Source of the DNA: Aphelidium insulamus
Taxonomy: Eukaryota; Aphelidiomycota; Aphelidea; Aphelidiaceae
Length of the DNA: 64,000 bases
Reading direction: 5' to 3'
Assembly: GCA_036784855.1 (NCBI GenBank)
Contig: JAZDSV010000050.1
Coordinates: forward strand, 28,445-92,444
Position numbers and translations under genes: made by a program. Under the pieces are notes generated by a model. That model was not told the DNA's origin, ran no database searches, and worked only from the letters and a program-made list of their open reading frames with translations. How positions within the stretch are numbered: the first letter of the stretch is position 1; each line of letters begins with the position of its first letter. Positions 53,545-64,000 of this stretch are shown one piece after another.

Positions 53545-53637
53545 ACGTGCATTGATGTGGAGTGTCTATTGCTATTAGATGGGATATTTCTAGTTGTTTT
53601 GTTGGATGCGTCTATACGTCGGCGTCCTAATCTTTCT

Positions 53638-53760
53638 CTAAACTTCAGCCTCGAAAACTTCGCCTTTGGTGGCCTCGATAAAACCGTCCTTGGTGTCGTA
53701 CTCTTGGTTGTCGCTGCTCTCGGAAACCTCGGCATCATCGATCTCAAGGGCTGCTGTGCA
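53638..53760 (-). CDS. 3'-terminal exon of an otherwise missing eukaryotic gene
   Basis: On the minus strand a pyrimidine-rich stretch ending TTTTTGCACAG looks like an intron acceptor. It is followed by an open frame of about 40 codons, acidic and ending DGFIEATKGEVFEAEV with a TAG at 53638-53640. Base use is like the eukaryotic genes. The upstream part of the gene should lie beyond 53,770, but the sequence there is bacterial, so the gene is cut. The product was not identified. Confidence 0.45.
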   Translation of the reverse strand, partial: CTAALEIDDAEVSESSDNQEYDTKDGFIEATKGEVFEAEV

Positions 53761-53814
53761 AAAATAAAGACGCTATTTATATGAAGAGTTAAGCAGTCTT
53801 ATGTGAAATGTAGA
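53761..53814. other. Eukaryote/bacterium junction
   Basis: Composition, gene structure and gene content change across this interval: intron-bearing eukaryotic genes to the left, AT-rich intron-free bacterial genes to the right. Truncated reading frames abut from both sides. The exact breakpoint cannot be placed better than about 50 bp by eye. Confidence 0.75.
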
Positions 53815-53928
53815 GAAGAAAAATTATCCGAATTTATTAAAATCAAACAGGTTGGTATCGACAGCCAGGTACAATATTTGAACCGCCTAAATGGTGAAGT
53901 AAAATTACGCGACATGAAACGGGGATAA
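53815..53928 (+). pseudogene. 3' fragment of a bacterial ORF
   Basis: After an in-frame TAG at 53812-53814 the frame is open for 37 codons, reading LSEFIKIKQVGIDSQVQYLN then RLNGEVKLRDMKRG and a stop. It looks like the charged C-terminus of a bacterial protein whose 5' part is absent because of the junction. No family was identified. Confidence 0.35.
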
Positions 53929-54192
53929 AACATTTTATTACTGCACACCAACATGAAATTAACGTATGGCGCCAGTGGCGTTTTGATTTATTTCAGTACG
54001 CGGCTTTAAATTATGCTTCATGTTTAGTTTAGAGGGGATAACTAAATAATTTTGTAAATTAGATATGGCGATAGTAATTAGGAAACTGTCAATCTTGCAA
54101 AAATTGCACGTATTTAGTGAAAAATATTTTATAAGGGAGTTATATAAAGTGGTGGACCTGTCTCGGACAAGTCACCCTGCAAGCAAAATATA

Positions 54193-55066
54193 ATGCGCGT
54201 ATACAACATCGACAAAGACAAAATAAAGATTTGTTTCGACATTATGCCCATCGGCGATACCCGACGGTTACGACGCCGGACATTTTACCGAAGGCTATAC
54301 GATGACATCCGCCGTTTTAAAAACAGAGTTTTCTCCAAGACGAGCTGACGAAGTTAAAGAGACTAATTTTATTCATCTCGACATTTTGACAAAGCTCATT
54401 GAGGCGCCAATGGCAATTTGTGACTTAAGTTCGCGAAATCCAAACGTTCTTTTTGAGTTAGGCATTCGACAGGCTTTTGATAAACCCGTGGTTTTAATTC
54501 AGGAAAAAGGAACTCCTAAAATATTTGATATTGGTCCTCTTCGCTACTTAGAATATTCGAGAGACATGAAATATCATGACGTTCTAAAAACCCAAGCTGA
54601 ACTTCAAGAAGCAATCGTGGCGACAAAAGCCGCTGTGGGCGGACACGGTAATATTAATCTCATTGAAAGGTTAATGGCGGTTTGGTTTCCACCTATGACA
54701 ATTCCACAGTTAGAAGGCAACAAAAAAGAGACGTTGGCATTGGACATTATACAAAGTCAAATGAGTGATCTTCGACACATGCTCGAAATGACGATGATGG
54801 ATGGGAAAAGAGGTGGCAGAAAAGGTAGCATTGTAGCAATCGAATATGAAAGAATAGTAAACAAACTTGACAAATTATCTCCGCTAAAAAATCTCAAAGG
54901 GCTGGCAAAAGACAACACCGAAAAAGAATATCATAAACTAATGATGGACGCTGAAAAATTAATGATGCATTGCGATCATCATGACGGCGACCACAGAATG
55001 ATGAGATACTTAATGGACAAGGTTCATGACCAAATGCGTGTCTGTGTGCACCCGCTCAGCTTATAA
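54193..55066 (+). pseudogene. TIR / nucleoside-deoxyribosyltransferase-like protein with a frameshift
   Basis: The N-terminal frame starts at the ATG 54193 and contains FDIMPIGD. The remainder lies in another frame from about 54,260 to the stop at 55066, with RADEVKETNFIHLDIL, PMAICDLSSRNPNVLFELG and FDKPVVLIQE. This Rossmann-like pattern (MPIG, ADE, D-L-S-x-x-N-P-N-V-x-x-E-L-G) is shared by TIR-like and nucleoside 2-deoxyribosyltransferase-like proteins, several of which cleave NAD or nucleotides in anti-phage defence; the role here is inferred. A C-terminal helical region of ~120 residues follows (DIIQSQMSDLRHMLEM). The frame break near 54258-54262 is a gain of one or loss of two bases. A hairpin element begins at its stop codon. 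Confidence 0.7.
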
Positions 55067-55156
55067 CAGCACCTACTTGCAATTTTTTGCGGGTTAACGC
55101 TCAAATGTGTAATTTGACATAGCAAAAAACTGCAAGTAGCTGCAAAACGTTATAAG
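55060..55156. repeat. attC-like hairpin element A
   Basis: A 97-bp imperfect palindrome. CTTATAAC (55060-55067) pairs with GTTATAAG (55149-55156). Inside, CTACTTGCA (55073-55081) pairs with TGCAAGTAG (55131-55139), TTTTTTGC (55083-55090) pairs with GCAAAAAA (55122-55129), and CAAAT with ATTTG. Single unpaired bases interrupt the stem. It contains the 17-mer AATTTTTTGCGGGTTAA that recurs in element B at 60314. Length, terminal inverted core and bulges resemble integron attC sites, although the ends do not fit the GTTRRRY core strictly. Confidence 0.55.
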
Positions 55157-55675
55157 TAATGCGCCTAGAATTTTTTATTTCAAATGACAATTTCTTTTAG
55201 AGATCATCTTCTCGTATTCTAATTCTGTCTTCCACTCCATCTTCACGGTTTGACAAGGAGAATTTTAAGTTTTTCCCTTTGCCGACGCACTCAGCTGACA
55301 CAGCCGATAGAACAGCTATCCCTTATGCTTAACTAAATTGCAAATTGGAGCGGGCTTGCGCCGCTCTGCCCCAATCAAGCACGTTTTTAATTGTTGGTTA
55401 ATGCGGGTTGCAAATCAGTTGTGCTCCTACCGCACCACGTTTTCAAAACGAATGATCGGTTGAATTAAACATTCGTCTCCGAATCGCCGACGCACAAACG
55501 CAAATCAATTATCGCCAGATCTTTGAATGGCTAAGTAGTATTGGGCGTAATTCATTGGGTTTCTCCGCCTTTTGCAAGTTGGGTGTACGGTGGCGCGACC
55601 CAACCAAACCCGAAGTTAATTTGTAGATTATTGCCGGGTTGCAAAAAGCTTTAAACCGTCTTCGAATAATATGGT

Positions 55676-55692
55676 GTGGCGCGAAGCGCCAC
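55676..55692. repeat. Perfect GC-rich hairpin
   Basis: Seven base pairs, GTGGCGC and GCGCCAC, around a GAA loop. There is no T-run after it, so it is not a typical intrinsic terminator. Confidence 0.6.
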
Positions 55693-55752
55693 GATTAGTG
55701 CACGTGCTTCCAGCCTTAAGGTGCGCCTGCGGCAGTAAGGTATTTTAAAAAG

Positions 55753-55768
55753 CAAGGGAAACCCCTTG
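55753..55768. terminator. Terminator-like hairpin, copy 1 of CAAGGGAAACCCCTTG
   Basis: AAAAAGCAAGGG and CCCTTGACTTTTT form a stem with a T-run, fitting an intrinsic terminator read on the plus strand. The same 16-mer recurs at 56248-56263 and in near-inverse form at 56281. Confidence 0.5.
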
Positions 55769-55823
55769 ACTTTTTACCTCTATTAAAAAACTTAATCTTA
55801 AAATCAATACTTTAGCCATAGTT

Positions 55824-56217
55824 TTGAAAACACCCACGATAAATATTATCATCGTCGATGATCAACCTATATTCACCTTAGGAATTCGATTAATACTTGA
55901 TAAGCATGGCATTTCAACAATTGACACTGCAAACAATGGACAAGAAGCATTAACCATTTTAAAAAAGCTTTGGGGTTTATCATGACAATCTTCATAAACT
56001 TTATTCCAAGCCATCTGTTAAAGATCGCCATTACTTTAGATTAATTTTTACTAGAAGAGAACAAGAAATAATTACACTTGTTTGCGAAGCGAAATCTACA
56101 AGTGCTATTTCAGCAACATTATTTATTTCAGAAAAAACTGTTCAGGCACACCTGACTGAAATTTACAAAAAGGTAAAAGTTGAAACTAAATCTAGTCTAC
56201 AATGCACGTCATGTTAG
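55824..56217 (+). pseudogene. NarL/LuxR-family response regulator, internally deleted
   Basis: Two fragments of one regulator type are separated. The first (55824-55985) is the start of a receiver domain: KTPTINIIIVDDQPIFTLGI with the acidic pair DD, breaking off at ILKKLWGLS before the phospho-acceptor region. The second, in another frame to 56217, is a LuxR-type helix-turn-helix (TRREQEIITLVCEAKSTSAI and SEKTVQAHLTEIYKKVKVET). The middle and end of the receiver domain are missing, and the C-terminus is shifted again near 56,200. It is a degraded gene and unlikely to act. Confidence 0.75.
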
Positions 56218-56247
56218 GCTTTCAATTTTAGGTGTTCAAAAATCATC

Positions 56248-56295
56248 CAAGGGAAACCCCTTGCCTAAGAATTGAAATATCAAGGGGTTTCCCCT
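56248..56295. terminator. Long hairpin formed by inverted CAAGGGAAACCCCTTG copies
   Basis: CAAGGGAAACCCCTTG (56248-56263) and CAAGGGGTTTCCCCT (56281-56295) are inverted copies with one mismatch and can form a ~15-bp stem with a 17-nt loop. It lies just after the broken response regulator and before the lipoprotein gene. Confidence 0.55.
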
Positions 56296-56415
56296 ATTGC
56301 CATTTAAATCTATCCAATCTACTTTAGCTATAATATTTTCTCATCTGGCCGAGATAAAGAATTTACAGAGGAAGCTGAAAATCTAAAGAGTAAGCAAAAA
56401 TTAATCCATTTAATT

Positions 56416-57388
56416 ATGAAAAAAACAATTTTAAATGTAGCTGGTATTGTTTCCGTACTAGGACTGTTTCTAGTGTCCTGTGCAAAACAAGATGTAAGTC
56501 CTGCTACATCATCAGCAACTGCTATTGAAACGCCGAGTGCTAACACAACAAACAGTTAATTTTCAATCAAAAAATGATATTTGGGCTATAAAGTATGTTT
56601 CCCCAGATACCATATTCGTTGCGTACAATGCCTCTGGAAACAAAGGATACAACCATAGCGGCACAATTATTAGAATAAACGAAAAGGGTGAATTGAAACA
56701 AACTATCGGCCTTAAAGGCTTTCCGATTCAATGCGATGAATGCGGCGAAATAAGTAAAGATTCCTTAGAATACATTACCTTAAAATATGGATCGCTTTTA
56801 TATAGTAAAAACAATTTGTTTGTACAGTTTGAATCTTATTATCATCATCCAGGAGACAGTATCTATATATTCAAAAAAATGCCAGTAAGCGGTCATATTA
56901 ATTTGAAAAATGGTGTAACGGTGTTACACGATATTTACATCCCTTCAACTGGTTCATATCCAAAAAGAGTAAAAGTTCCTTCCATTGCAGTAGATGCAAA
57001 TGGAAACCCTGTTTTAGCTTTTAATATCTCTTCAAGGCTGTATAGTTACAATCTTGAAACTAAATCAGCGGCATCACACTATATAAATTCCTTTTGGGGC
57101 GATACTTTAATGCCATATGATCAATCGATTTATAAAAGCAGGCCACAAGATGATTATACCCAAATTAGTTTTAGAAACATTATCTACGATCCTTACAGAC
57201 AAATCTATTTGAGGTTTAATTGCTTGCCATTACCTTCCAATTCTTCGCCTCAAGACAGAAGAAATCCAGACTTTAGTTTAACCATAATCGATAAAAATTT
57301 TAACTATAATGAAGGATACTTTAAGAATTTATCTCCAACTTGCTGCATTACTGAAGAGAATATTTTTGGATACAGAAAACTACTGTAA
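56416..57388 (+). pseudogene. Bacteroidota lipoprotein, DUF4221-like, frameshifted
   Basis: The frame from 56416 encodes a lipoprotein signal peptide, MKKTILNVAGIVSVLGLFLV with the lipobox LVSC, and a Thr/Ser linker, ending at a TAA at 56557. The rest lies in a second frame from about 56,525 to 57388. It is rich in Tyr/Asn/Ser and beta-strand-like (NDIWAIKYVSPDTIFVAY, IIYDPYRQIYLRF, NPDFSLTIIDKNFN). The YDPYRxxYxRF pattern recalls DUF4221 proteins of Bacteroidota, outer-surface lipoproteins of unknown role; this is a recollection, not a search. The frame break lies between 56,525 and 56,557. The C-terminus seems short. Confidence 0.6.
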
Positions 57389-58383
57389 TTCCCAATAACA
57401 TTAGTTTCAGGTTATAATCGGTATTATTTGAAGTAGCATAAAAATGGATTTAGCGAAACATGTGTGTTAGAGATACTGCAAAGGTTATTGGGTTTGAAAG
57501 TATTATGTAAATAAGAATTTTAAATTCATAGGTAAATCAGCAGTATTTTTATACCGGTATCGCCTGCCATATTAGCAAGTACAAAGTGTGGCAGCAGAAA
57601 ATCAATCCAAATATCCTATACATTTAATTTTGAGCTGAACTAAACTGCGATTTCCTGCTTTTACTTGAATATAATTTTATTCGACAAATCAAAAGTATTT
57701 CAAGATAGCAACCTAAATACTGAAAATACCTAGAACCACCGTTAATGAGCACCGGTTTCTTTGGAAATGAAAAATGACTAAAGAGGTGAAGACTGTTCCA
57801 AGTACGAGAACAACCAGAAGAGAAACCGTACTTTGATATAGTACAATTTTATAATAAAATTAAATAAAAAGAAAAATAAAAATGGCAGATTTAAAGACAG
57901 TAAAGTTCAAAAGCATGACGAAAAGAATGGTAAATTTGTTACTTGTGGGATTCGCGCTCATCCATTGATAATATTAGATATCTGTATAAATCGCTGCATT
58001 TCAGGGAAATGGAAGATGCAGGTGTTGAAAATGGTTCCTCCTGACAAAATTAAATTTGATAGTTTAATAATTAAATTGTGTGCGAACAATAAAAACTGAT
58101 CTTTTCAAAACTGACGGCCTTTTCTTCCACTAGGCTTCCCAAACCTGCGTTGGCTGTTTTAATTATCTGACTGATCTATGTGGACAACATGGTGAACATC
58201 TGGGTGGCTGCCACTTATTACAACATAGTTACCATAGGCAAAGAATGCCAACGGACAAGGTAACAGAAACTTTATCTTTATATAGTTGTTGAAGGTAAAC
58301 GGATGAATTTCAAAAGGACTGCAAAAGTAGCCTTCAAACCGTTACCAGGCATAGGCATATGTTGCATGGACGGAAATTTAAAA
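57389..58383. other. Degraded bacterial region, possible HxlR regulator remnant
   Basis: No intact gene in ~1 kb. Around 57,950-58,100 one frame reads SGKWKMQVLKMV and KIKFDSLI, which resembles the GKWK start of HxlR-family regulators. Such regulators often sit beside oxidoreductase genes like the one that follows. The match is short and the call is weak. Confidence 0.35.
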
Positions 58384-59333
58384 ATGAAAGCAATTGTATA
58401 TAAAAATATGGGACCACCGGAAGTTGCTTGATTGATGAAGTTACAAACTCCCGCCGTATTGATGTAACGAGGTTTTACAAAGGTATATGCATCTACAGGA
58501 ATCGAATATCTTGCCTGAGTGCCGAATTACTTTATTTTCATGATTTGAGTGGACTTACGTCCAAATATCAATTTTAGGTTGTGAGTTCGCGGTATAATTG
58601 AAGAATCAAGAGGTATCAACATTCAAGAAAGTGATGTTTGATTTAATGGTCAAACCTTTGGAGGACACGGAGAGAAGCCAACAATTGCTGGAAACAGATT
58701 TTCTTGCCATTACAACTATGCCTTGAGCGTTTTGGTTTTGATGTAGCTGCAGCTATTACTGGTAATGCCCACTATGCCTTGGTTGATATTAGGGCAAGGA
58801 AAAGTTGAACAAGGGCAAAATGTTTTAGTGTATGGGACAACAGGCGCCATAGGCTCTGCAGCTATTCCATTATTAAAACATTTTGGTGCAATAGTAACCG
58901 CAGTTTGCAATACAAAAAATGTAGGGCTTGTAAAATCTCTTGGTGCCGATACTGTTATTGATTACCAAACACAAGATTTCACAAAGACAGAAAATAAATT
59001 TGAATTCATTTTTGACGCTGTTGGAAAAAGTTCATTCGGACAATGCAAGCCTTTACTAACTAAAAAAGGAATTTACATTTCAACCGAATTGGGGAAAAAC
59101 GGAGAAAATCTTCTTTTTGCGCTTACTACACCTATTTTGGGAGGCAAGAAACTTTTATTCCCAATTCCATCAATTACTAAGCAAGACGTAATATTTTTAA
59201 AAGAACTTGTTGAAAAAGGTGAATTTAAACCTGTAATTGACAGGACATATAAGTTAGACCAAATGTTGAAGCTTATAAATACGTTGAATCAGGACAAAAG
59301 ACCGGTAATGTAATAATAAAAATAGCAGAATAA
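58384..59333 (+). pseudogene. NAD(P)-dependent MDR oxidoreductase (quinone oxidoreductase-like), multiply frameshifted
   Basis: The gene starts MKAIVYKNMGPPEV at 58384, then meets an in-frame stop. Pieces of the MDR N-terminal domain follow in other frames (ILGCEFA near 58,580; FGGHGE near 58,665; NAHYAL near 58,770). From 58,765 a long open frame holds the cofactor domain: VLVYGTTGAIGSAAIPLLKH with the GxxGxxG-type loop and SLGADTVIDYQTQDF. Near 59,270 the frame shifts again, and the family-type ending (ESGQKTGNVIIKIAE) is in another frame, stopping at 59331-59333. At least four breaks make this a pseudogene or a poorly resolved sequence. Confidence 0.78.
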
Positions 59334-59395
59334 CAATAATATAAGTACAATCAACAAAATTCACATTTAATAATCTATAGATAAAATAATCAGAA

Positions 59396-60139
59396 ATGGA
59401 TTTCAACCCAAGCAACCATGTAGTTAAACTCTGTCTTCAAGGCATGGATCTGGAAGGAAAAAACAAACCTGAAGAAGCAAGCAGAGTATTTTTTCAAGCC
59501 TGGGATGAAGCCACAAACGATTCTGAAAAATTCATTGCTGCTCATTACGTCACCCGACATCAAAAAAGTGTTCACGATAAATTAAAATGGATCGAAGCAA
59601 CTTTGCAGTTAGCACTAAAAATAAATGACAACTATGTTAAAGGAACTTTTTCTTCTCTATATTCCAATATTGCGAAATGCTATGAAGAATTAAGTGACTT
59701 TGATAACGCCAAAAAGAATTATGAATTAGCAAATTCATTCAAAGACAACCCTTATGACAACGGTCCCTTTTATCACGGGACGAAAGCAGATTTGCAAGTT
59801 GGCGATTTGCTGACTGCGGGATCCAGATCTAACTACAACCAAGAAGTGATAATGAATCACATTTATTTCACCGCCCTAGTTAATGGAGCTGGACTTGCTG
59901 CGGAATTAGCTAAAGGTGACGGACGTGAACGTGTTTATATAATTGAACCTACAGGGAGTTTTGAAAATGATCCGAACGTTACAGACAAAAAATTTCCGGG
60001 CAATCCGACGCGCTCATTTCGCAGTCAAGCCCCACTGAAAATTGTTGGCGAAGTAACTGATTGGATCAGACTAAAACCTGAGGAACTTCAAAAATGGCGT
60101 GAAAAGCTGGCAAATAACAAAGGAGAAATTATTAATTAA
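59396..60139 (+). CDS. arr: Arr-type NAD(+)-rifampin ADP-ribosyltransferase with a TPR-like N-terminal domain
   Basis: Residues ~120-247 form an Arr domain, which inactivates rifampin by ADP-ribosylation. The expected residues are present: His in PFYHGTKADLQVGDLLTAG, Tyr in SNYNQEVIMNHIYFTALVNG and Asp in FENDPNVTDKKFPGNPTRSF. Residues 1-118 are helical repeats (FFQAWDEATNDSEKFIAAHY, CYEELSDFDNAKKNYELANS) that resemble a pair of TPRs. Stand-alone Arr proteins are about 140 residues, so this is a two-domain form. The gene is intact, unlike its upstream neighbours, and starts 62 bp past the MDR pseudogene. Resistance is predicted, not shown. Confidence 0.9.
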   Translation: MDFNPSNHVVKLCLQGMDLEGKNKPEEASRVFFQAWDEATNDSEKFIAAHYVTRHQKSVHDKLKWIEATLQLALKINDNYVKGTFSSLYSNIAKCYEELSDFDNAKKNYELANSFKDNPYDNGPFYHGTKADLQVGDLLTAGSRSNYNQEVIMNHIYFTALVNGAGLAAELAKGDGRERVYIIEPTGSFENDPNVTDKKFPGNPTRSFRSQAPLKIVGEVTDWIRLKPEELQKWREKLANNKGEIIN

Positions 60140-60293
60140 TTTCTTTGAAGCAGAAACTAAACAGCTCAGCCATTGGTTTAGCTAAATCAAGTTCCGGTAT
60201 TTGTCGACTAAGCATTGGTTTGATTTCATTTGGCTGACATCATTATCATTATTTATAATAATGACATCAAAGCAATTATAAATAACCACCAGC

Positions 60294-60387
60294 TGCTAAC
60301 GGTGGTCTTGCCTAATTTTTTGCGGGTTAAAAATCAAAGTAGTACTTTGGACTTAGAAAAAATAAATACCTGCTAAGAATGTTAAAC
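60294..60387. repeat. attC-like hairpin element B
   Basis: Lies between the Arr and SDR genes. It carries the 17-mer AATTTTTTGCGGGTTAA (60314-60330), identical to that in element A, then a CAAAG...CTTTG hairpin in the same position as the CAAAT...ATTTG hairpin of A. Outer ends are TGCTAAC (60294-60300) and GTTAAAC (60381-60387); the latter fits the GTTRRRY core of attC sites. The outer stem is less perfect than in A. Confidence 0.5.
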
Positions 60388-60427
60388 TAAAAAGATAAAA
60401 TGAATAAATTTACTTCATTTATCATCT

Positions 60428-61210
60428 ATGCCTGATTTCAAATCTAAATACGGCCCTTGGGCAATAGTGGCGGGCGCTTCCGAAGGTTTAGGCGCGGCTT
60501 TTGCTGAAGAATTGGCAAAACGTGGGCTTCATTTAATTTTAATGGCTCGTCGGTTAGAAAAACTAGAGGCATTAGCAAAGGATTTAAAACTTAAATATTC
60601 CATTGAGGTAAATTGTTATTCAATAGATTTAACCAACCTTGAACAAACCAAAACTTTTGTTTCGAAGCTTGATAAAACTATCGGCTTATTAGTTTATAAT
60701 GCGGCCTACGCTCCAATTGGCTATTTCGAGACTGTTGCTGAAGAAGATTTGTTGAAAATAGTTGATGTGAATATTAAATCACCATTACTACTTTCAAAAC
60801 TCATTTTACCACAAATGATAGAGAGAAAGAAAGGCGGTATTGTTTTAATGTCGTCGCTCGCCGGTTCTCAGGGTAGTCCTAAAATTGCCACTTATGCAGC
60901 CTCAAAAGCATTCAACACCATTTTAGCAGAGGGGATTTGGAGTGAATTAAAACATCATAATATAGATGTGATAGCATCTTGCGCGGGTGCGATTAGTACG
61001 CCCGGATATAAAAACGCGCAAAATACAAAAGATGCTCCGGGTACATTACGCCCTAACCAAGTTGCTAACGAAACATTAAATGCCCTCGGTAATGGTCCAA
61101 CTATTGCACCGGGATTTACAAATAAACTGGCTCGTTTTTTTATGGGGAGAATATTCTCAAGAAAATTTGCAATTTCAATAATGAAAAAAAACACAAAACA
61201 TTTATCATGA
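60428..61210 (+). CDS. Short-chain dehydrogenase/reductase
   Basis: A classical SDR of 260 residues. The cofactor loop is AIVAGASEGLGAAFAEELA, with Ala replacing the usual Thr of TGxxxGxG. Asn of the tetrad lies in VDVNIKSPLLLSKLIL, Ser in VLMSSLAGSQGS and Tyr/Lys in ATYAASKAFN. An Arg pair after strand 2 (MARRLEKLEAL) favours NADP(H). The substrate is unknown. Its stop codon overlaps the next start (ATGA at 61207-61210), so it is co-translated with the sterol-reductase-like gene, suggesting work on a related lipid or isoprenoid substrate. The start at 60428 follows an attC-like element by about 40 bp. Confidence 0.92.
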   Translation: MPDFKSKYGPWAIVAGASEGLGAAFAEELAKRGLHLILMARRLEKLEALAKDLKLKYSIEVNCYSIDLTNLEQTKTFVSKLDKTIGLLVYNAAYAPIGYFETVAEEDLLKIVDVNIKSPLLLSKLILPQMIERKKGGIVLMSSLAGSQGSPKIATYAASKAFNTILAEGIWSELKHHNIDVIASCAGAISTPGYKNAQNTKDAPGTLRPNQVANETLNALGNGPTIAPGFTNKLARFFMGRIFSRKFAISIMKKNTKHLS

Positions 61211-62157
61211 TAACTCCACTAATCGGATTCTTTACACCTTGGATAATTTATGCTTTAATTACGCTTCTGCATTACTACTTGCCCACTCCTTTTGTGAAGG
61301 GATACGTACGAGATTCACAAAGCGGAGAATTATTAGAGTACCGTTTAAACGGACGTTTTATTTTATTTATTTCGATGGTACTTTGGTTTTTAACCGGCTA
61401 TTTAGGTTGGGTTCCTTATGATTGGCTTTATACAATTAGGTGGTACAGTTTAGCAGGAGCATTCACTTTAGGATTATTATTTTCACTACTTTTGTTACAA
61501 TTAAATGTGCTGAGTTTTACAGCGCATCATTATTTCGCTTTCGGAAAATTATCTTCAGGAATACTTTTGTGTTCTGCCATGTTAACCTATTTTATCTGGG
61601 ACTATTTAACCTTCGAGAAAGTACATCTATATACTTACGATTTTTTTGCAGAACGCGTTGGCTTTAAATTAGGTTGGGGTTGCTTAACTTTTTATCCTTA
61701 CTTCTACTCGATTCCTCTTTGGTCGACCGTTAATTTAGAAGGTGCCCATACACCTAACTGGCTGCTTTGTTGTTTTGCTCTTATTTTTATTTGCGGATGG
61801 GTTTTAGCTAGAGGCGCAAACATGCAAAAATATTTTTTTAAGATAGCGCCTGATAAACCATTTCTTGGAATAAAGCCTGAAAGTATTTCCGATGGAAATA
61901 AAACTTTATTGGTTAATGGCTTTTGGGGATTAAGCAGACACATTAATTATTTAGGTGAAATTTTAATGGGTACTGCAATTGCATTGAGTGTTGGTTACCC
62001 GGGAGTAATTTGGGTTTGGTGTTATCCTTTATATTATGTTGCATTGTTGTTACCAAGGCAAATTGATGATGACAAACGCTGCGCTGCCAAATATGGTAAT
62101 TTGTGGGAGGATTATTTGAAAAAAGTAAAATACAGAATCATTCCATTTTTGTATTAA
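61207..62157 (+). CDS. ERG4/ERG24-family sterol C14-reductase-like membrane protein
   Basis: A membrane protein of 316 residues with about seven hydrophobic segments (for example ITPLIGFFTPWIIYALITLL and WYSLAGAFTLGLLFSLLLLQ). The C-terminal part has the family signature: VLARGANMQKYFFK, NGFWGLSRHINYLGEILMGT and PRQIDDDKRCAAKYGNLWED, ending YRIIPFLY. Family members reduce the delta-14 or delta-24(28) double bond of sterols with NADPH. In bacteria the substrate is rarely known, since few make sterols; related or host-derived lipids are possible. It overlaps the SDR gene by 4 bp. The frame is intact and the codon use agrees with the bacterial side. Confidence 0.87.
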   Translation: MITPLIGFFTPWIIYALITLLHYYLPTPFVKGYVRDSQSGELLEYRLNGRFILFISMVLWFLTGYLGWVPYDWLYTIRWYSLAGAFTLGLLFSLLLLQLNVLSFTAHHYFAFGKLSSGILLCSAMLTYFIWDYLTFEKVHLYTYDFFAERVGFKLGWGCLTFYPYFYSIPLWSTVNLEGAHTPNWLLCCFALIFICGWVLARGANMQKYFFKIAPDKPFLGIKPESISDGNKTLLVNGFWGLSRHINYLGEILMGTAIALSVGYPGVIWVWCYPLYYVALLLPRQIDDDKRCAAKYGNLWEDYLKKVKYRIIPFLY

Positions 62158-62219
62158 TATAAAACAAATTTGATTCTGGTTAAACTATTTTCTTAAGGGA
62201 CTAAGCTAATACTACATTA

Positions 62220-62693
62220 ATGCTTACAGAAACTCAAATACAATTAATTTCAGAAATTAATATTGCCTTTAAAGAAGTTGAATTAGATGACGGAATTGGA
62301 TTAAGTGAAGGCAATGCGATTGATGAATATAGAGATACGCAATTCAGAAATGAATGTAGAAAAAATGATGAGGAATTTCGCTGGGATAATATTCCTTCTT
62401 CCCTACTGAATGAGTATTACACCAGCTTAAGTTTTTTTGATGCGAAAGGCATGCGTTTTCATTTGCCAGCATTTATGATTGCTGAATTAAAAGGCGAATA
62501 TCGTTTTGGGATGGCATTTTGCCTGACACATCTTTCAGATTATTCAAGATCTCAGTTTGAGCTTCTAACAAAGCAGCAAAAGGAAACTGTTAAACTATTT
62601 CTGGAATATCTTTTAACAGACCCTAATTATGAATTTGAAAAACCAACTATTGAACGGGCAATAGAAAATTATTGGTCTATGCCTTTAAAATAA
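62220..62693 (+). CDS. DUF6714 family protein
   Basis: An acidic protein of 157 residues with the pattern FFDAKGMRFHLPAFMIAEL near the middle and YSRSQFELLTKQQKETVKLF toward the end. These agree with my recollection of DUF6714, a family of unknown function often found in scattered bacterial loci. No signal peptide, membrane segment or catalytic motif. It is a monocistronic-looking gene with 62 bp to the upstream stop. Confidence 0.7.
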   Translation: MLTETQIQLISEINIAFKEVELDDGIGLSEGNAIDEYRDTQFRNECRKNDEEFRWDNIPSSLLNEYYTSLSFFDAKGMRFHLPAFMIAELKGEYRFGMAFCLTHLSDYSRSQFELLTKQQKETVKLFLEYLLTDPNYEFEKPTIERAIENYWSMPLK

Positions 62694-62801
62694 CATTTTT
62701 ACATTCTGTAAATGTGTGAATTTTACAACTTATTTAAAAAACCCTATAATCTTTTTATTTTAAAAGTGTTCACCTTTAATGGGTAGAATTATAATGAGAT
62801 T

Positions 62802-63209
62802 ATGAGAAATGAATTTTGGTTAAACTTACCCGTAAAAAACGTAAGCCGATCTATAGCTTTTTTTAAACAACTCGGATTTAATTTTAAAAATGAGTCCGAT
62901 ACAATGGCTAGTTTACTTGCTGGAAAAGATGATGTTGTTATAAATCTCTTTGAAGAGGATGAATTTACAGGTTATAGCGGTAATGCGATTTCTGATACGC
63001 AAAATGCTACCGAAGTGTTATTTAGTATTAGCGCTAAAGACAGAGAAGAGGTAAATGGGTTTTCTGTAAAAGTTAAAGTAGCCGGCGGCAGAATTCACAG
63101 AGGACCTGAAGAAAAAGACGGTTGGATGTATGGCTGCGGTTTTACTGATCTGGACGAACATCGCTGGAGTATGTTATATATGGATATGAGTAAAAAGCCG
63201 AAAGCATAA
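62802..63209 (+). CDS. VOC (glyoxalase/bleomycin-resistance) family protein
   Basis: A small protein of 135 residues with the vicinal-oxygen-chelate fold pattern: FWLNLPVKNVSRSIAFFKQL and LGFNF at the start, VKVAGGRIHRGPEEKDGWMY and GCGFTDLDEHRWSMLYMD at the end. The second half keeps the D-x-x-x-H-x-W-x-x-x-Y/M pattern of this superfamily. Members are metal-dependent lyases, dioxygenases or drug-binding proteins; the function cannot be chosen from sequence. Confidence 0.85.
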   Translation: MRNEFWLNLPVKNVSRSIAFFKQLGFNFKNESDTMASLLAGKDDVVINLFEEDEFTGYSGNAISDTQNATEVLFSISAKDREEVNGFSVKVKVAGGRIHRGPEEKDGWMYGCGFTDLDEHRWSMLYMDMSKKPKA

Positions 63210-64000
63210 AGTTTATTTTGAAAGCTTTCCCCTACTTTTATTCGTCTGATTTAAATTAAACGAATGACATTTCTTCATTGCAAAGCATTACTTATATTAT
63301 TTTTAGGCCTCCTATTCTTTCCTATCCTTACCTATTCACAAGAAGTTCCTGTTGCTAATAAAGATGAAACCCTCTTGATCTTTGAAGGATTGTGATCTCA
63401 CCTGATTTTTCAGTTAAGTTTACCTCAAAAAACGAACTATTGGACTTGCAGTTTTTTCCAGAAAAATAGTAAATTAGGATGTTTAAAACTGAAAAATAGT
63501 GGTCCTGTAAAAAACCTGAGTTATATGCGCCGAGTATCCTGTTCTATCAAACGGATCAATTGGCCAACTAAATTAGTAAGGGTGATTTTGTTCGTTTGAT
63601 CTCAGAAAACAATTGGCATTTATTACATATCGTCTCCAGTCACCACTCTAACGGACACATGAAATTATTTTTTAAGATAATGAGATAAATTTATAGAAAT
63701 CAGCTGCCTCAACAAATAAGCTAGTAGAAATTGCTCTTCAGCTGGTCGACAATTGATTCAAGGTACTGTAGGAGTGCTTGTGCCAATGGAAGAATTGGAT
63801 ACGATGCGTTGGCTGGATTTCGAAACGCTGAAATTCAATTAAAAGATACGTACTATTATGCATAAGCTAACTGTGCAGAGAGTCATATGACGCTACTCTG
63901 AAAAAATAAAAAGTGTATATCACCTACTTTATGGGGTACAAAAAAATTTGTACGTGCGTAACTAACAGGATATATTCTATCGTCATGAAAACCTTCTAAA
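63210..64000. other. Degraded 3' bacterial end of the window
   Basis: Apart from the signal-peptide fragment at 63264 no gene is supported in the last 790 bp. Short frames on the plus strand shift repeatedly and end in stops, as in the 55-59 kb region. Confidence 0.5.
63264..63395 (+). pseudogene. Signal-peptide fragment of a broken secreted protein
   Basis: The frame from 63264 gives MTFLHCKALLILFLGLLFFP then ILTYSQEVPVANKDETLLIF and ends at a TGA at 63393-63395. The signal peptide is typical, with cleavage after TYS. The next stretch (SPDFSVKFTSKNELLDLQFF) is open in another frame, suggesting that a longer secreted protein has been broken. The family was not recognised. Confidence 0.5.

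Follow-up and report, generated by a model that had tools for sequence, protein, structure and literature searches.

The window analysed here, a stretch of 64,000 nucleotides from Aphelidium insulamus, a parasitoid of algae, forms the end of contig C120 and consists of two parts, which meet at the break given in Table 1. GC content is 52.05% to the left of the break and 35.5% to the right, where the profile in 1-kb steps stays between 0.31 and 0.41 from 54001 to the end of the window. The value of the left side is the same as that published for the A. insulamus genome (Pozdnyakov et al. 2023, PMC10608142). On the left side, open reading frames of at least 200 amino acids cover 0.28 to 0.50 of each of five 10-kb blocks. 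A protein of the RPA2 type is encoded on C120, and its third-best match, with 67% identity, is from Amoeboaphelidium protococcarum, the two better matches showing 76% and 71%. The frames to the right of the break are free of introns, and seven of eight frames subjected to a Pfam scan matched a protein family.

An abrupt change from eukaryotic to bacterial DNA had been proposed in a preliminary description, and the step in GC content together with the intron-free bacterial frames bears this out. It had also been proposed that a gene is cut on each side. This holds for the aphelid side, where a frame on the minus strand, with its stop codon at 53638-53640, is open up to the break. On the bacterial side, an open frame (53785-53928, 47 codons) is indeed present where the 3' end of a cut ORF had been placed (53815-53928), but its best Pfam match has an E-value of 0.18, leaving it unproven as a gene end. 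The first bacterial gene to the right of the break that is confirmed by homology is located at 54227-55066.

Table 1. Coordinates of the features in the window and of the corresponding contig sequences
Feature	Position	Strand	Remarks
Window	C120:28445-92444		final 64 kb of C120 (92,444 bases); window end is contig end
3' end of aphelid gene, 39 codons and stop	53638..53759	-	other 169 codons at C116:70-576, minus strand; counted from coordinates
71 bp identical to C116:1-71	53689..53759		alternative (true) continuation
Aphelid/bacterial break	53759/53760		identity to C116 stops, GC drops
Bacterial tail, 10,241 bp	53760..64000 (C120:82204-92444)		reaches end of C120; far border never seen
Gene of P0001 family (286 aa in P0001)	54227..55066	+	frame damage: near start, one internal patch, end
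LuxR-type response regulator, two frames	55770..56217	+	receiver piece 55770-55985; GerE domain 55963-56217
DUF4221 protein	56498..57388	+	profile positions 96-306 of 311 matched
Zinc alcohol dehydrogenase, C-terminal part	58747..59313	+	N-terminal domain not recognised in scanned frames
Arr-domain protein (rifampin ADP-ribosyltransferase family)	59396..60139	+	domain C-terminal
Short-chain dehydrogenase/reductase (SDR)	60428..61210	+	frame intact; best match 80%, Bacteroidia MAG
ERG4/ERG24-like reductase	61207..62157	+	without 129 nt near 61484-61490
DUF6714 protein	62220..62693	+
Glyoxalase/bleomycin-resistance superfamily protein	62802..63209	+

The gene at 54227-55066 belongs to a family with 2166 matches and no NCBIfam name. 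It shows weak likeness to TIR domains (PADLOC, E-value 2.6e-05) and likeness to deoxyribosyltransferases below the Pfam cut-off. The receiver piece of the response regulator likewise remained under the Pfam cut-off (27.3 of 30.2 bits). A DUF805b RNA motif (RF02914) was detected at 56365-56396 with 37.4 bits, the gathering score being 35.6. In a search without positive control, the DUF4221 protein was found in none of the genomes of ten relatives. The Arr protein has an extra N-terminal part, and its frame is intact.

Continuation of the interrupted aphelid gene

The missing 5' parts of the two supposedly cut genes were searched with the sequence 53600-54000 in 169 contigs comprising 17.95 Mb. 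The published assembly consists of 18.93 Mb in 274 scaffolds (PMC10608142), and the shortest of 41 contigs with known length has 10,060 bases, indicating that short scaffolds may be missing from the searched set. Two matches were obtained, the site itself and the start of contig C116. The search thereby recovered the eukaryotic part and yielded no continuation of the bacterial side. On the minus strand of C116, a frame that begins with an ATG at C116:574-576 stays open as far as the contig start, in the same phase as the frame ending at 53638. The part on C116 amounts to 169 codons including the junction codon and the part in the window to 39, with the two contigs read apart and not joined. 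C116 has 97,306 bases, a GC content of 0.533 over its initial 10 kb, and a tetranucleotide profile correlating with that of the aphelid block (r 0.858).

Since the missing 5' part, reaching back to an ATG without a change of frame, is on C116, an uninterrupted aphelid locus is present in the assembly. Judged from the two sequences, the apparently cut gene would be complete with C116 as the continuation of C120. The eukaryotic piece had been described as a 3' exon separated from its upstream exons; it need not be one, and an exon with lost introns was rejected, as the 39 codons are simply the last of a frame that runs on into C116. A k-mer of constant length used in assembly was also considered as the source of the 71-bp overlap and rejected, because Flye is the assembler named in PMC10608142 and the contig ends differ from each other.

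A continuation located elsewhere in the assembly, identical up to the break and in phase with the frame, is what a chimeric contig should leave behind. The other explanation put forward at the outset was a recent insertion of bacterial DNA. At least 10 kb of Bacteroidota DNA would then be present in part of the aphelid nuclei, C116 would represent the allele without insertion, and the inserted genes would be beginning to decay. The assembled sequence of C120 itself speaks for this explanation. It is opposed by the uninterrupted locus on C116 and by the presence of host DNA on one side only: the tail extends to the end of the contig and a second border is not seen. In addition, no gain of introns is apparent among the tail frames listed.

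Affinity of the tail and bacterial contigs in the assembly

Relatives of the ERG24-like protein were found at 13 loci in one contig scan, the best with 68% identity. By title, nine are from Bacteroidota, two from Neomarinimicrobiota and two from an 'uncultured bacterium'. At the DNA level, most or all of the SDR gene lies directly before the ERG24-like gene in eight of the 13 loci, and it is partly matched there in two further ones (L010, L019). L015 contains the ERG24-like gene only, and L018 and L020 gave no DNA match.

The tetranucleotide profile of the tail is nearest to those of two contigs of the same assembly, C36 (r 0.854) and C24 (0.817), with four reference stretches of Bacteroidota behind (0.69-0.76). 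Lower values were obtained for C60 (0.606), C92 (0.595), C20 (0.576), C9 (0.508), C148 (0.491), and C48 (0.363). Correlation with aphelid DNA is low, r being 0.314 and 0.222 for aphelid blocks of the window and 0.296 for C116, though this likeness is not fully discriminating, as shown by C92, which is aphelid-like in composition and still reaches 0.595. No other copy of the last 1 kb of the tail was detected in the 169 contigs.

GC content and ORFs were sampled over the first 10 kb of 20 contigs, with 5 kb of C28 consisting of N. C24, C36, and C60 combine low GC contents (0.379, 0.352, and 0.319, respectively) with high ORF coverage (0.66-0.81). Eight ORFs from these three contigs were scanned for domains. 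They specify a Peptidase_C25 and a glycosyltransferase on C60, a YegS-type kinase on C36, and an amino acid permease, MatE, and CtaA on C24; two ORFs were without firm match, one on C36 showing none and one reaching only values below the cut-off. Taken together, GC content, ORF density, and domains indicate that C24, C36, and C60 are bacterial. The Por_Secre_tail domain was found at five places, on C36, C39, C60, C79, and C98, with four hits over the cut-off and that on C60 below. Among 14 control genomes a signal for this domain was obtained only in a Bacteroides, also below the cut-off. C24, C36, C39, C60, C79, and C98 are therefore probably Bacteroidota contigs left in the assembly.

TonB plug domains were detected four times: C148 has three of them, and the fourth is on C9, in a protein which we take to resemble proteobacterial ones. 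C9, C148, and C20 look like proteobacterial contamination, C20 being probably bacterial. A bacterial rpoB gene was not recognised: the RPB2 domain gave five matches, all on C120 and C150, and the match on C120, the only one classed, is the RPA2 of RNA polymerase I. The contaminant thus appears to be only partly present in the assembly, a point against the chimera. As judged by the profiles of C36 and C24 and by the five contigs with Por_Secre_tail domains, the foreign side of the junction resembles contaminants in the same data, and this likeness in composition to bacterial contigs of the same assembly argues against an insertion.

Condition of the tail genes

Several genes of the tail are broken, and the damage is distributed unevenly. 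ORFs of at least 150 amino acids cover 0.76 of the region 58701-63300 versus 0.26 of 53760-58700. Decay of the bacterial genes had been named as a pointer to insertion, and the broken genes, along with the missing 129 nt of the ERG24-like gene, do speak for it. The kind of damage could be assessed in the gene at 54227-55066, the only one with a near-identical relative. This relative, P0001, is encoded on a 95,772-base public contig. Identity in BLASTP is 96% across 96% of the query; with the damaged start taken in, it is 88% across 281 residues. The tail frame differs from P0001 in 25 of 268 columns, the numbers per 20 columns being 10, 5, 0, 0, 0, 0, 1, 7, 1, 1, 0, 0, 0, and 0. Up to 11 differences fall into a stretch of 20 columns, compared to a mean of 5.1 in permutations, and none of 10,000 permutations reached such a value. 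Clustering was weaker against more distant relatives, with p values of 0.0002 (P0002), 0.016 (P0003), and 0.003 (P0004). Compared among each other, P0002 to P0004 also differ unevenly, with up to seven differences per 20-column bin, so that part of the pattern belongs to the protein itself.

Neutral decay should be spread evenly, and in the one gene tested the differences are clustered. The sign taken from decay is therefore misleading here, and the clustering stands against insertion. Dense patches of differences between long perfect stretches are what an intact bacterial gene would show after noisy long-read sequencing and partial polishing. For 54227-55066, such patchy damage agrees better with a long read whose polishing was incomplete than with neutral decay.

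The ERG24-like gene lacks 129 nt in frame relative to 12 of the 13 relatives (103 relative to L018), and in the DNA comparison 129 nt are present in ten of 11 relatives and 131 in one. The loss could be a read error, a polishing error or a real variant, and it counts as an observation against the reading as a chimera.

Origin of the junction

From these analyses we consider the junction an assembly chimera of C120 with a Bacteroidota bacterium of the culture, with a probability of about 0.96. The continuation on C116, the composition of the tail, and the bacterial contigs in the assembly support the suggestion of a misassembly with a co-cultured Bacteroidota bacterium. Recent insertion, the second suggestion, is nearly excluded by the uninterrupted locus on C116 and the lack of a second border; positive evidence for it consists of the C120 sequence and the broken genes and nothing beyond, and we regard it as highly improbable. 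Because the true continuation starts C116 and the tail matches bacteria of the culture, the junction is not evidence of gene transfer.

How the chimera came about may be deduced from the sequences and the published protocol. Chimeric long reads arise from multiple displacement amplification (MDA) or ligation, and a single read of this kind is the probable cause. The DNA was obtained from an infected Tribonema culture and MDA of zoospores, and sequenced about 9.6-fold by Nanopore and about 95-fold by Illumina (PMC10608142). BlobToolKit served to screen the contigs, and long reads not mapping to trusted contigs were discarded; Flye then produced a new assembly from the remaining long reads, and Illumina reads were used to polish it (PMC10608142). 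With regard to an earlier mention of the tail, the searched text of that paper contains the string 'contamina' once, on screening, and that of a 2025 expression paper (PMC11767097) does not contain it, in a search that was not exhaustive.

In the proposed scenario, the sequence up to 53759 is aphelid nuclear DNA with its real continuation on C116, and that from 53760 on is 10.2 kb of Bacteroidota DNA from the non-axenic culture. One Nanopore read, made chimeric by MDA or ligation, would link the aphelid and the bacterial molecule. Its aphelid half would map to trusted contigs, allowing the read to survive the filter, and the second Flye assembly would follow it beyond the aphelid end of C120. 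At that stage, long reads of purely bacterial origin, able to correct the tail, would already have been removed, and Illumina polishing would mend the tail only in parts. A chimeric read and the filter would thus explain why the tail sits at the end of a contig, how long it is, and why its quality is patchy. An adapter at the junction was considered and rejected, as scores for adapter sequences were near the background mean and no trace was detected, a result that counts against the chimera.

The same false join could have been made during assembly itself, with no chimeric molecule involved. Contig ends do often have other copies in the assembly: with 40 of 59 candidates scored, at least eight of 12 terminal 90-base pieces have one. 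The end of C13 and the start of C14 share about 42 bp. At the junction, however, no repeat links the two sides, 53600-54000 matching only itself and C116, and there are no N letters in the whole window. Within the reading as a chimera, this variant is rather unlikely, and a chimeric read is preferred. Regarding the end-pieces in general, four of the 12 were without other copy among the candidates scored, and the others matched at various places and with various identities. Near-identical stretches are shared by the end of C1 and C30:8537-8637, by the start of C92 and C49:11-100, and by the end of C13 and the start of C14. Shared stretches of this kind point to further unresolved forks or repeats in the assembly. 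Near the end of C2 and inside several other contigs, a repeat is present in many copies.

As biology the finding is ordinary. Reconstructions of how fungi originated draw on aphelids, and the genome concerned is presented as the first assembled one of Aphelidium (PMC10608142). Bacterial genes fused to an aphelid contig, such as those for the ERG4/ERG24-like reductase or the Arr protein, could pass as horizontally acquired. Splitting C120 between 82203 and 82204 and re-checking C9, C24, C36, C39, C60, C79, C98, and C148 would prevent false claims of horizontal gene transfer.

The abrupt join of unrelated sequences and a tail about one read long are features shared with chimeric reads from MDA or ligation. 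The difference here is that the chimera is deduced from contig sequences and from the protocol as published. The assembly of the tardigrade Hypsibius dujardini offers a parallel, with a non-axenic culture, bacterial genes in a eukaryotic assembly, and the risk of false horizontal gene transfer (PMC4824900, PMC5531438, PMC7003083). Unlike in that case, a genuine nuclear contig of A. insulamus runs straight into the bacterial DNA, and the break can be placed to the base.
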